DNA from: Pseudomonadota bacterium
GTDB lineage: Bacteria > Pseudomonadota > Alphaproteobacteria > CADEGL01
Assembly: GCA_027619995.1 (NCBI GenBank)
Contig: JAQCGR010000006.1
Coordinates: 1-34,242 of the forward strand
Direction of reading: 5' to 3'
Length of the DNA: 34,242 nucleotides
Shown here: positions 14,739 to 18,497 of the stretch, in pieces
Layout of the letters: each line of letters starts with the position of its first letter
How positions within the stretch are numbered: the stretch's first letter is position 1
Translations under genes and position numbers: made by a program
The notes under the pieces: model-generated
The model's input: the letters and a program-made list of their open reading frames with translations, nothing else
Databases searched by the model: none
What the model was told of the DNA's origin: nothing

Positions 14739-16229
14739 CTAGGACGAGACGCTGCGCCTCGGCTTGTAGGCAACGTCGCCTTGGCCAAGCACCGTGTCCT
14801 GCACCAGGACATTGGAGAACTGCCAAGGGTCATCGCGGTCGATATCCTCGGGAAACAGCGTTTCCTCACGGCCCGTGACCGGCGTCCAGTCGGTATAGAC
14901 GCCGACAACCGGACCAAGATAGGGCCGCTGCACATCCAGACAGCGCAGGAAGTCGATCTCGTCTGCCTCGACGATCCCCGCTTCAGGATTTTCCAACGCC
15001 CAGACCATGCCGGCCAGCACGGCGGAGGTCACCTGCAGGCCGGTCGCGTTCTGATAGGGCGCCAGCTTGCGGGTTTCCTCGATCGACAGTTGCGAGCCAT
15101 ACCAATAGGCATTGCGATCATGGCCGTAGAGCAGGACGCCCAGCTCGTCGATGCCGTCGACAATATCGGCCTCGTCCAGGATCGTGAAACTGTCCTGCGC
15201 CTTCCATTGCCGCCCGGCGAATTCGTGCAACGACAGGATCGCGTCGTCGCAAGGGTGGTAGGCGTAGTGGCAAGTCGGCCGGTAGACCGTCTTGCCCGCC
15301 CGCCGCAAGGTGAAGTAATCGGCGATCGAGATCGATTCGTTGTGGGTCACCAGGAAGCCGAGCTGTCCGCCCGCCGTCGGTGTCCAGGATCGCACGCGCG
15401 TTCCCGCGCCCGGCCGAGCCAGGTAGATCGCCGCGCCGCAGCCGCCCTCATGACGGTGACCCTCGAACGGCAGAGCCTTCTCATGCGTTCCCCAGCCGAG
15501 TTCGGCCGGCTGCAGCCCCTCGGAGACGAACCCCTCGACCGACCAGGTATTGACAAAGGTGCCGCGCGGCTTCGGGTTGCGCGCGCGCTGGGTATCGCGC
15601 TCGGCGATATGGACACCCTGCACGCCGACGCGCTGCATCAGCAGCGCCCAGTCCTCGCGATGCGAGGGGGTGTCGGCCTCGACACCCAGATCCGCCGCCA
15701 GGTTCAGCAGCGCCTGCTTGACGAGCCAGGAGACCATCCCGGGATTGGCGCCACAGCAATTCACTGCCGTCGGGCCGCCCGGCCGGCGGCGCCTCAGATT
15801 CAACACGCTTTCCCGCAAAGCGTAGTTCGAGCGCTGAGCGATTTCGAGCGACGGATCGGCGTAGTGACCCAGCCAAGGCTCCGCCACGGTATCGATGTAG
15901 AGCGCGCCAGCGTCCTTGCACAGCTCCATCATCGCCGTCGAAGACACATCGACCGAAAGATTGACCAGAAAGGCCTGTTCGTCGTCAACGTCGAGCAGCG
16001 GCATCAGCAGGTCGCGATGATTCTCGCGCGTGACGGCCGCCGTGACGAACGCGGCACCCATCGCTTCCACCATGTCCCGGTCCGAGTCGTTCGGGTCGAT
16101 CACGGTAATCCGTGCCGGGTCGCAGGCGATATGCCGCAGGATCAAGGGCAAGGCGCCACGGCCGATCGAGCCGAAGCCGAGGATGACGATGGGCCCGTCG
16201 AAACGGGCATGGATGGGCCAGTCAGTCAT
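14739..16229 (-). CDS. hss: Homospermidine synthase
   Basis: This 496-residue NAD-dependent enzyme makes sym-homospermidine from two putrescines (or putrescine plus spermidine) in the cytoplasm. It has an N-terminal Rossmann fold with GFGSIGRG (18-25) and VIDPNDSD after the second strand, followed by the family core: AVNCCGANPGMVSWLVK, THNESISIADYF, CHYAYHPCDDA and AYWYGSQLSIEE. The length is normal for the bacterial enzyme (about 475-500). It is the last gene after an ornithine decarboxylase, which supplies putrescine, and a GNAT gene. Homospermidine as a main polyamine is typical of alphaproteobacteria. The saccharopine dehydrogenase-like fold is the only alternative, and the Cys/Tyr motifs argue against it. 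Confidence 0.95.
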   Translation of the reverse strand: MTDWPIHARFDGPIVILGFGSIGRGALPLILRHIACDPARITVIDPNDSDRDMVEAMGAAFVTAAVTRENHRDLLMPLLDVDDEQAFLVNLSVDVSSTAMMELCKDAGALYIDTVAEPWLGHYADPSLEIAQRSNYALRESVLNLRRRRPGGPTAVNCCGANPGMVSWLVKQALLNLAADLGVEADTPSHREDWALLMQRVGVQGVHIAERDTQRARNPKPRGTFVNTWSVEGFVSEGLQPAELGWGTHEKALPFEGHRHEGGCGAAIYLARPGAGTRVRSWTPTAGGQLGFLVTHNESISIADYFTLRRAGKTVYRPTCHYAYHPCDDAILSLHEFAGRQWKAQDSFTILDEADIVDGIDELGVLLYGHDRNAYWYGSQLSIEETRKLAPYQNATGLQVTSAVLAGMVWALENPEAGIVEADEIDFLRCLDVQRPYLGPVVGVYTDWTPVTGREETLFPEDIDRDDPWQFSNVLVQDTVLGQGDVAYKPRRSVSS

Positions 16230-16262
16230 GGCTGGGTCTCCTTCGGTTATTAGTGTACGGCG

Positions 16263-16850
16263 CTAGCGCGCGCTGGCATGGGTCGGGTTCGAGTGTCGTT
16301 CCATAGGAAAGGACGAATGAAGGGCGGCGATTGCCGCAACGTCTGGCTGGCTTTCGACTGGACCGCTCGCGGATACGATGCCGCGGGCGCCAGTCAAGGA
16401 TCCCGACAACAGCTCAAGGCCGAGGAAACGCTCGAGCTCGACCGGGCCGGGCATGGCCAAGCCCTCGGTCAGGGACCGGCTGAAGCCGAAGCGCGTGTAA
16501 TACGGCGCGTCGCCGACCAGCAGGATCGCCCCATGGCCCAGGCGCTCCGCCTCGGCCAGGCCATGGCGCATCAGCAGCGCGCCCAGGCCCTGGCTCTGCC
16601 GTTCGGGCGTCACCGCGACCGGCCCGAGAAGCAAGGCCGGGCCGGCCGAGCCGGCCGTGACATGCCAGAGCCGCAGGGTTCCGATCAGGCTTTCGCCCTC
16701 GAGCAACGAAAAAGCCAGCCCTGACGCCGGATTCCGGTCGCGACGCAGCAGTTCGCAGGTCTTGCGATGCCGCGCGGGGCCGAAACAGCGGTCGAGCAGC
16801 GCTTCCCGGGCGGGCCGATGGGCCGGCGTCTCAGGCAGCGAGCGCGGCAT
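16263..16850 (-). CDS. GNAT-family N-acetyltransferase
   Basis: This 195-residue protein has a YhbS-like GNAT fold: GTLRLWHV strand, LLGPVAVTPERQSQGLGALLMRHGL (acetyl-CoA pyrophosphate loop QxxGxG), then ILLVGDAPYYTRFGFSR. The ATG at 16850 has GGGGAG at good spacing and overlaps the last 20 nt of the decarboxylase gene, so the two are cotranscribed. Its place between ornithine decarboxylase and homospermidine synthase suggests a polyamine or precursor substrate, for example acetylation that limits polyamine excess, but the sequence does not identify the acceptor. Frames upstream of 16850 lie inside the decarboxylase and are not part of it. Confidence 0.9.
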   Translation of the reverse strand: MPRSLPETPAHRPAREALLDRCFGPARHRKTCELLRRDRNPASGLAFSLLEGESLIGTLRLWHVTAGSAGPALLLGPVAVTPERQSQGLGALLMRHGLAEAERLGHGAILLVGDAPYYTRFGFSRSLTEGLAMPGPVELERFLGLELLSGSLTGARGIVSASGPVESQPDVAAIAALHSSFPMERHSNPTHASAR

Positions 16851-17994
16851 CGCTCTCCCCTCCCACGATATAGGTGGGCAGAGGGACGAAGCCGTTGAAG
16901 GCCACAGAGGCATAGGTCGAGGTATAGGCGCCCGTCGCCTCGATCAGCAGCTCGTCGCCGATCTGCAGCGACAAGGGCAACGCATAGGGTGTCTTCTCGT
17001 ACATCACATCGGCCGAATCGCAGGTCGGCCCGGCGATGACGCAAGGTGCCGTCTCGCCGCCGTCGCGCGGGGTGCGGATCGGATAGCGGATGGCCTCGTC
17101 CATCGTTTCGGCCAGGCCGCCGAATTTGCCGATGTCGAGATAGACCCAGCGCGCCTCGTCCTCGGCGGACTTGCGCGAGATCAGCACGACCTCGGTCTTG
17201 ATCACGCCGGCATCGCCGACCATGCCGCGACCGGGCTCGATGATCGTGGCGGGCAGGCGATTGCCGAAATGCCGGGTCATGGCGGCCTGAATCGCCTCGG
17301 CATAGGCCATGGTGGCCGGCACGTCCTTGATATACCGGGTCGGGAAACCGCCGCCGAGATTCAGCATCGACAGGTTGATGTTCTTGTCGCCCAGAGCCAC
17401 GAAGACTTTCTTCGCGTCGCCGACCGCCTTGTCCCAGGCCATCAGGTCGCATTGCTGCGAGCCGACATGGAAGGACAGGCCACAGGCATTCAGGCCCAGG
17501 CGATGGGCGCATTCCAGCACGTCGACCGCCATGTCGGTATGGCAGCCGAACTTGCGCGACAGCGGCCATTCGGCCCCTTCGCCATCCGTCAGGATGCGGC
17601 AGAAGACGCGCGCGCCGGGCGCCTGGCGGGCGATCTTCTCGACCTCCTCGACGCAATCGACGGCGTAGAGGCCCACGCCCAGGGCATGGGCGCGCGCGAT
17701 GTCGCGTTCTTTCTTGATCGTGTTGCCGTAAGAGATCCGGTCGGGCGTGGCGCCCGCCGCCAGGGCCATCTCGATTTCGGCCACGGAGGCCGTGTCGAAG
17801 CAGCAGCCGAGGGAGGCCAGCAGCGCCAGAATCTCCGGCGCGGGGTTCGCCTTGACGGCGTAATAGATGCCGGTCGCGGGAAAGGCCTCCGCGAGATGCT
17901 GAAAGTTCCGTCGCACGACGTCGAGGTCGACGACGAGGCAAGGCCCGTCCGGTCGCTCATTGGCGAGGAAATCGATGATGCGCTGGGTGGTCAT
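16831..17994 (-). CDS. Ornithine decarboxylase (PLP fold type III)
   Basis: This 387-residue cytoplasmic enzyme converts ornithine (possibly also lysine) to putrescine (cadaverine). It shows the alanine-racemase-like barrel of eukaryotic-type decarboxylases: PLP lysine K48 in YYAVKANP, HVGSQ at 176-180, NLGGGFP at 212-218, EPGR at 253-256, and the catalytic Cys325 in GPTCDSAD. The short length lacks the wing domain of E. coli SpeC, as usual for this fold. It heads an operon with the GNAT gene and homospermidine synthase, so its putrescine probably goes to homospermidine. Ornithine and lysine use cannot be told apart here. A structured leader upstream can hide its GGAG ribosome-binding site. 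Confidence 0.93.
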   Translation of the reverse strand: MTTQRIIDFLANERPDGPCLVVDLDVVRRNFQHLAEAFPATGIYYAVKANPAPEILALLASLGCCFDTASVAEIEMALAAGATPDRISYGNTIKKERDIARAHALGVGLYAVDCVEEVEKIARQAPGARVFCRILTDGEGAEWPLSRKFGCHTDMAVDVLECAHRLGLNACGLSFHVGSQQCDLMAWDKAVGDAKKVFVALGDKNINLSMLNLGGGFPTRYIKDVPATMAYAEAIQAAMTRHFGNRLPATIIEPGRGMVGDAGVIKTEVVLISRKSAEDEARWVYLDIGKFGGLAETMDEAIRYPIRTPRDGGETAPCVIAGPTCDSADVMYEKTPYALPLSLQIGDELLIEATGAYTSTYASVAFNGFVPLPTYIVGGESDAALAA

Positions 17995-18290
17995 GCGCCT
18001 GTCTCCCGTACAGAAAACCGCAATGCCGGTTTCGGTCGTACAGGGCTGCGCTACGGAGACGCAGGATCCCGCTCGGGGCCGATACGCGGCGTTACCGGGT
18101 TCTCCGCGCGAACGGGAACCCGAGGTTTCAGCCTTCAGATTGGAACGGGAAACCCGCTCCGCACGTGGGGCAATGAGGGTGTGCCTCTTCAGTGTCGCCG
18201 GTTTTTGGACAACCAGACTGAGACCAAAAAAGCCCGCACCGTCGTTGCTTTAAGACGCCAATCCCTGGAAAGGGATATTTGCCGGCGTCC
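17995..18290 (-). ncRNA. Structured leader of the ornithine decarboxylase operon, candidate speF-type RNA
   Basis: Hairpins seen (plus coordinates): 18001-18010 with 18052-18060 (nine pairs, one bulge), which buries the GGAG of the decarboxylase; inside it 18015-18020 with 18027-18032; a competing helix 18005-18011 with 18038-18045, which also covers part of the same site; 18096-18102 with 18116-18122 (seven pairs); 18124-18129 with 18149-18154; and a double stem 18254-18259/18284-18289 around 18261-18266/18271-18276. A speF leader RNA is known upstream of such decarboxylase genes in alphaproteobacteria. The position fits, but identity with that family was not verified. Mutually exclusive helices over the ribosome-binding site suggest translational control, perhaps by polyamines or ornithine. 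Confidence 0.55.
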
Positions 18291-18497
18291 ACGGGCACGT
18301 GCGAATTAGGGCAATCGTTACGTAGGGCTTTTGCGAGTCGCGATCAAGAGAAAAATGGATAGATTCCGAACAAATTTTGAGCCGCCGGCCCGCCGTCGAG
18401 CTGACGCAATGCTTCGGTGGATTGAGGCGGCATACAAGGGTCGACGAAAGGGGTGACCAGAGGAAACGCCCCGGCTGGGCCGGTACCCCAGTTATCC
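18291..18497. other. Gene-free region between tamB and the decarboxylase leader
   Basis: About 200 nt without a plausible gene. It probably holds the decarboxylase promoter, but no clear pair of boxes stands out. A small GC hairpin (CCGGC 18471-18475 with GCCGG 18479-18483) lies just after the tamB stop and on the minus strand is followed by GGCGTTT, a weak terminator candidate. Confidence 0.35.

Follow-up and report, generated by a model that had tools for sequence, protein, structure and literature searches.

The closest described relative of the leader analysed here is the speF leader RNA (Rfam RF00518; Corbino et al., 2005, PMC1273637), which is the same RNA in the same gene context. In the 2005 publication, a stem close to the transcription start carries a large insertion, and after it comes a long stem-loop with bulges, about 80 nt in size; the last 150 nt of the leader were given no assignment. 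Ornithine, lysine, meso-diaminopimelate, putrescine, cadaverine and spermidine showed no binding to speF in vitro (PMC1273637); the statement in a first-pass annotation of the present locus that the speF ligand is not established agrees with this paper and with PMC11477304. A 148-nt RNA overlapping RF00518 has been sequenced in S. meliloti (PMC2873474). The second described element, αr45 (RF02347; SmrC45/SmelC706 of S. meliloti), has the same sequence, hairpin and U-run as the structure called fold A below. It was described as a separate small RNA, the only published cases being S. meliloti and Bartonella (PMC7717549), whereas here it forms the 5' end of the leader and one of its strands covaries with speF.

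Translational riboswitches with anti-Shine-Dalgarno (anti-SD) sequestration likewise consist of a multi-helix junction followed by a segment able to mask the Shine-Dalgarno sequence (SD). The present leader differs from them in having no known ligand and in carrying, in addition, a terminator-like fold that shares strands with the junction. The speFL system of E. coli also controls ornithine decarboxylase through a leader, but it is peptide based, whereas the leader described here has no ATG.

speF and αr45 in the decarboxylase leader

The window (the whole stretch of DNA analysed, 34,242 nt) carries an operon encoding (i) an ornithine/lysine decarboxylase (16831-17994, ATG at 17994; COG0019-type ornithine decarboxylase), (ii) a GNAT acetyltransferase (16263-16913, the longest open reading frame, overlapping the end of the decarboxylase gene) and (iii) a homospermidine synthase (14739-16229). 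These genes, and all leader features given below, lie on the minus strand. The predicted promoter, TTGATC-17-TACGTA (18319-18347), has a position conserved in the alignment, and a promoter-like TTG-17-TA..T pattern precedes αr45 in the aligned homologues; the window copy is weak and a consensus promoter scan makes no call there. Transcription is predicted to start at about 18312, giving a leader of 318 nt (18312-17995).

An Rfam scan of the window placed αr45 (18228-18312; 58.5 bits, gathering threshold 40) 9 nt upstream of speF (18086-18218; 53.3 bits, gathering threshold 37) on the same strand. The speF identity had been claimed from gene context, with a run of the RF00518 covariance model proposed as a check, and this match bears it out: the score exceeds the gathering threshold and the element is positioned upstream of a COG0019-type ornithine decarboxylase gene. 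Moreover, the long bulged stem with conserved outer pairs of the 2005 model is found, as helix P3, in the window as well as in 50 sequences of the alignment. Several stems further upstream had also been noted as features of the leader. The double stem among them (18254-18289) is real and equals the distal helix of αr45 (P2, 18253-18290), which is contained in the predicted folds and comprises top covarying columns, but these stems are not separate features, since they are parts of RF02347 and RF00518. The helices proposed at the start site fall downstream of the RF00518 end.

Homologues were collected through the decarboxylase protein (80 loci) and through the Rfam models (further loci), so that about 140 related bacteria were compared. 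The αr45 core TCGCACGTGCC precedes the decarboxylase gene in 142 of the 145 loci with this gene, the αr45 5' core does so in all 20 hold-out genomes, and the gap between αr45 and speF is 8-9 nt in each of 12 sampled genomes with both Rfam families. A joined αr45+speF model gave matches of 95-145 bits, in a single copy per genome, in 46 of the 398 genomes of a phylum sample, all belonging to one class. RF00518 alone is sometimes under its cut-off; in one genome (G192) it scores 31.6 bits, compared with 108.5 bits for the joined model. Weak RF00518 matches also occurred where the decarboxylase gene is absent (L159 and L160); the one at L159 is probably false, as the stretch around it looks like coding sequence. 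In Thalassospira australica, about 280 nt are inserted in the speF core between UUGCC and GUGCGG.

Because strands are shared between two exclusive folds, and because of covariation with the SD (both described below), αr45 and speF probably belong to one transcript that can adopt two exclusive folds and mask its SD. We consider it likely that the leader is one regulatory RNA that the databases file as two families.

The decarboxylase of the window is 86-88% identical to genes of other families (L101 and L141). The other members of its own family (genomes G001-G004) have no leader match, and of the decarboxylase they carry no more than a 53%-identical version or fragments that are more distant; in the family members L163 and L164, the reading of each 53%-identical match contains one TGA. 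Either the operon and its leader (14739-17994 plus the leader) were horizontally transferred or the contig was wrongly binned. Three records titled Sphingomonadales, Kuenenia and Bacillus subtilis (L029, L037 and L056, respectively) have leaders and decarboxylases resembling those of named alphaproteobacteria, and are probably contaminated or mislabelled assemblies.

Predicted exclusive folds of the αr45 and speF strands

For an RNA ending at the U-run, the predicted minimum-free-energy structure is fold A (-32.4 kcal/mol), closed by the pairing of GCCC (18312-18309) with GGGC (18235-18232) and then followed by U6. The near-invariant 12-mer TTCGCACGTGCC (18294-18305; 142 of 145 loci) is in part a hairpin arm in fold A and provides the 5' strand of helix P1 (18305-18296) in the alternative fold B. 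As a terminator, fold A is weak: the hairpin and U6 are present, but the adjacent stem is short, with four pairs beside the U-run, a terminator scan makes no call, and the U-run is interrupted in many rhizobia. Compensatory support for fold A comes only from two related species (L142 and L143). These are the most divergent members of the set, in which GCCC/GGGC is swapped for other paired sequences and hairpin III (see below) is not recognisable. A pairing of the U-run with loop I was discarded, as by inspection it is not kept in homologues.

When the RNA reaches 18158, the predicted structure is a three-way junction (fold B; -63.0 kcal/mol, z = -3.4), closed by pairing of TTCGCACGTG with CACGTGCGGA (P1; 3' strand at 18158-18167). 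The long helix P3 of this junction uses a strand composed of GCAA, GA, GGUG and GCUUUUUUGGU (18223-18248), which serves fold A as 3' arm and U-run, and fold B as the 5' strand of P3. Its 3' strand, composed of ACUGAAGAGGC, CACC, UC and UUGC (18170-18193), is supported by covariation, pair counting and the decarboxylase tree, and hairpin I (18198-18216), with the 7-nt loop GUCCAAA (18210-18204), forms the tip. The P3 strand GCAACGACG...GGGCUUUUUU is the same strand that also closes the αr45 hairpin.

A covariation scan of 72 non-redundant leaders gave two long-range pairs among its top three, with z-values of 19.3 and 17.5, which are not to be read as probabilities because column pairs of the coding region that are not base pairs also score high, from relatedness alone. 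Both link the internal loop of the αr45 3' strand (GGUG, GUAG, GUAA, GGAU and so on) to speF (CACC, CUAC, UUAC, GUCC and so on, respectively), and RNAalifold extends both into P3, the strongest base-paired covariation outside the αr45 stem. Pair counting for P3 showed 96.8% of cells paired and 59 double-changed cells, compared with 20.8 in shuffles (0 of 500). The helix scored 0.234, versus at most 0.072 for slid versions of it. On the decarboxylase tree, the 5' side of P3 requires 7 changes, the 3' side 7 and the joint state 9; therefore several of these changes coincide. All six core pairs of P1 are present in 133 of 141 loci, and P1 shows no covariation because it is almost invariant. Strands common to folds A and B are nearly invariant as well, as a double constraint would predict. 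In constrained folding, whose energies disregard pseudoknots and proteins, fold B was more stable than fold A in 67 of 69 species, by a mean of 10.3 kcal/mol.

We regard P3 as supported by covariation, and P1 by invariance and predicted energy. On sequence comparison and modelling, the better-supported candidate for the conserved exclusive pair is the αr45 terminator versus the speF three-way junction, roughly 18312-18158. Fold B would be unable to antiterminate the same polymerase, because its 3' strand is made after the U-run.

We read the 2005 description of speF as corresponding to P2 and P3, i.e. to fold B, and the αr45 model as corresponding to fold A. The current RF00518 structure contains neither P1 nor P3, and its pairing of GGCA with UGCC is compatible with fold A but not with fold B; unlike the leader model proposed here, it also includes neither the SD pairing nor hairpin III. 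We found no publication joining fold A (αr45) with fold B (speF), the 2018 motif update (Greenlee et al., cited in PMC7266159) being outside this comparison.

Region II and the Shine-Dalgarno sequence

The GGAG of the decarboxylase SD had been located within GGGAGAC (18001-18007) in the first-pass annotation, and the SD segment ACGGGAGAC (18009-18001, minus strand; 6 nt before the ATG at 17994) was confirmed. Base-pair probabilities pointed to the segment directly after P1 as its partner. This segment, region II (18131-18157), comprises a hairpin GCGGG/CCCGU and the anti-SD GUUUCCCGU (18153-18145). In the window, GUUUCCCGU and ACGGGAGAC form nine pairs with no bulge (-15.0 kcal/mol for the 9-bp core), a stronger and covarying pairing that the earlier list of SD partners had missed.

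The own-species duplex energy of region II with the SD was -17.14, whereas permutation of the SDs gave -15.47 (sd 0.33; 0 of 20,000 permutations, a kind of test that only partly removes relatedness). In the same test other leader segments gave z-values of -1.6 to +2.2, and a scan sliding relative to P1 had a single peak (z = -6.5) at +2 to +24 after P1. The signal persisted when the six nearest relatives served as the comparison (p = 0.001) and when 15 divergent representatives were compared with one another (p = 0.0006), and it dropped off on both sides of the SD. Because region II had been chosen after seeing the base-pair probabilities, the test was run on a hold-out of 20 further genomes, where own duplexes averaged -13.74 versus -12.37 for permuted ones (p = 0.0027); these genomes are not fully independent, because several are close to genomes already used. 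Hairpin II alone showed a modest gain over shuffled sequence (-5.0 versus -3.9).

The leader thus combines a structured domain and an expression platform that both have covariation support, as in a riboswitch-type element. Coevolution of the two segments supports masking of the SD by region II (approximately 18157-18131) as its putative partner.

Proposed mechanism and alternative explanations

The explanation that we find probable is that of one leader RNA with the exclusive folds A and B and masking of the SD, in which a signal of polyamine status would set the state of the junction. After the polymerase leaves the promoter, the αr45 part would fold as the predicted terminator-like hairpin (fold A), an early and leaky terminator, and some transcripts would end at the U-run as the αr45 small RNA, an ending known from published work in other species. 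Such premature ending would constitute a second, earlier layer of control. On read-through, speF sequence would capture the hairpin 3' strand together with the U-run, GUGCGG would pair with the 5' arm thus released, and the resulting three-way junction (fold B, the read-through fold) would exclude fold A. Region II would then act as a switchable mask, folding into a short hairpin of its own in one state and covering the SD by base pairing in the other, and the junction state, as set by some polyamine-status signal, would most likely decide between the two. The direction of switching and the ligand are points that we only infer.

A more specific form of this mechanism is possible, if doubtful, namely a two-level riboswitch. 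Its receptor would be αr45 plus speF, sensing an operon product absent from the 2005 tests (e.g. homospermidine or an acetylated diamine); control would be exerted at the αr45 terminator and then at region II and the SD, and the αr45 "sRNA" would be an attenuation product.

Other readings take the hairpin loops as their starting point. Hairpin III (18046-18064; loop CTCCGTA at 18058-18052) lies beyond RF00518 and has a loop of the form CUCCANN (CUCCGUA in the window). Its stem covaries in 43 species, with double changes at all six pairs (66 cells versus 24.9; score 0.662 versus 0.225); these 43 sequences exclude a Mesorhizobium-like group, in which the loop is kept and the stem register differs, and a few divergent sequences with no recognisable hairpin. 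The close relative L141 has no hairpin III. Hairpins I and III bear like 7-nt loops, NUCCANN (18210-18204 and 18058-18052), on unrelated stems, the window loop III having G for A; the CUCCAAA loop of some species equals the anticodon loop of tRNA-Trp. It is rather unlikely that an RNA-binding protein, and not a small molecule, reads these NUCCANN loops and sets access to the SD, and we know of no candidate protein for them. Binding to the loops would not account for the internal positions that are conserved in P1 and P3, even though loop III hardly varies while its stem covaries freely, loop I has the same UCCA core and the published ligand tests were negative (PMC1273637).

That αr45 acts in trans, as an Hfq-bound small RNA pairing with the decarboxylase mRNA leader and repressing or activating it, seems quite unlikely. 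The pairing partners are on one transcript, separated by a nearly constant distance of about 50 nt, folding in cis is strongly favoured energetically, and no second promoter was seen by inspection between αr45 and speF (in the 8-9-nt gap and the αr45 3' half). Covariation is nevertheless unable to separate cis from trans, and αr45 was detected as a separate RNA in Bartonella, where the transcript carrying speF exceeds 700 nt, while the S. meliloti copy co-precipitates with Hfq (PMC7717549).

A translational switch had previously been placed at the start site itself, with loop III (18060-18052, GTCTCCGTA) and the strand 18045-18038 competing for the SD. Of this proposal, mutually exclusive pairing and a maskable SD were retained, but the helices named are not the conserved ones, and as formulated it is very improbable. 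Both pairings can be drawn in the window: the first has nine pairs with a single bulge (duplex energy -11.8 kcal/mol), and the second, with 18011-18005 (-11.8), excludes it. The CUCC of the loop is complementary to GGAG, which is present in most SDs. When the covariation of these helices was checked in homologues, as had been suggested, loop III and the SD did not covary in 71 species (12.86 with the own SD versus 12.88 with the SDs of other species; z = +0.5), predicted pairing of the SD to loop III averaged 0.002, and 18045-18038 was not the conserved partner. Windows directly upstream of the SD gave z of about -5, a signal that was traced to the 5' flank of the SD when the segment was split; the SD core itself had no own-species match in the windows just upstream (z = -0.5 to -0.9 for the nearest). 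A local hairpin at the start codon was rejected on this ground, the 5' flank having some match.

A leader peptide sensing ornithine in the manner of E. coli speFL can hardly apply, since despite the same gene function (PMC7815308) the window leader contains no ATG anywhere, no conserved short reading frame was found, and by inspection, conserved TTG/GTG codons are followed by frames that shift from one species to the next.

The speF leader has been an orphan riboswitch candidate since 2005, and αr45 a small RNA with no known function. An untried ligand or the wrong fold may be the reason for the failed binding tests. A joint αr45/speF RNA with exclusive folds and an SD-coevolving segment, as proposed here, gives exact mutations and construct boundaries.
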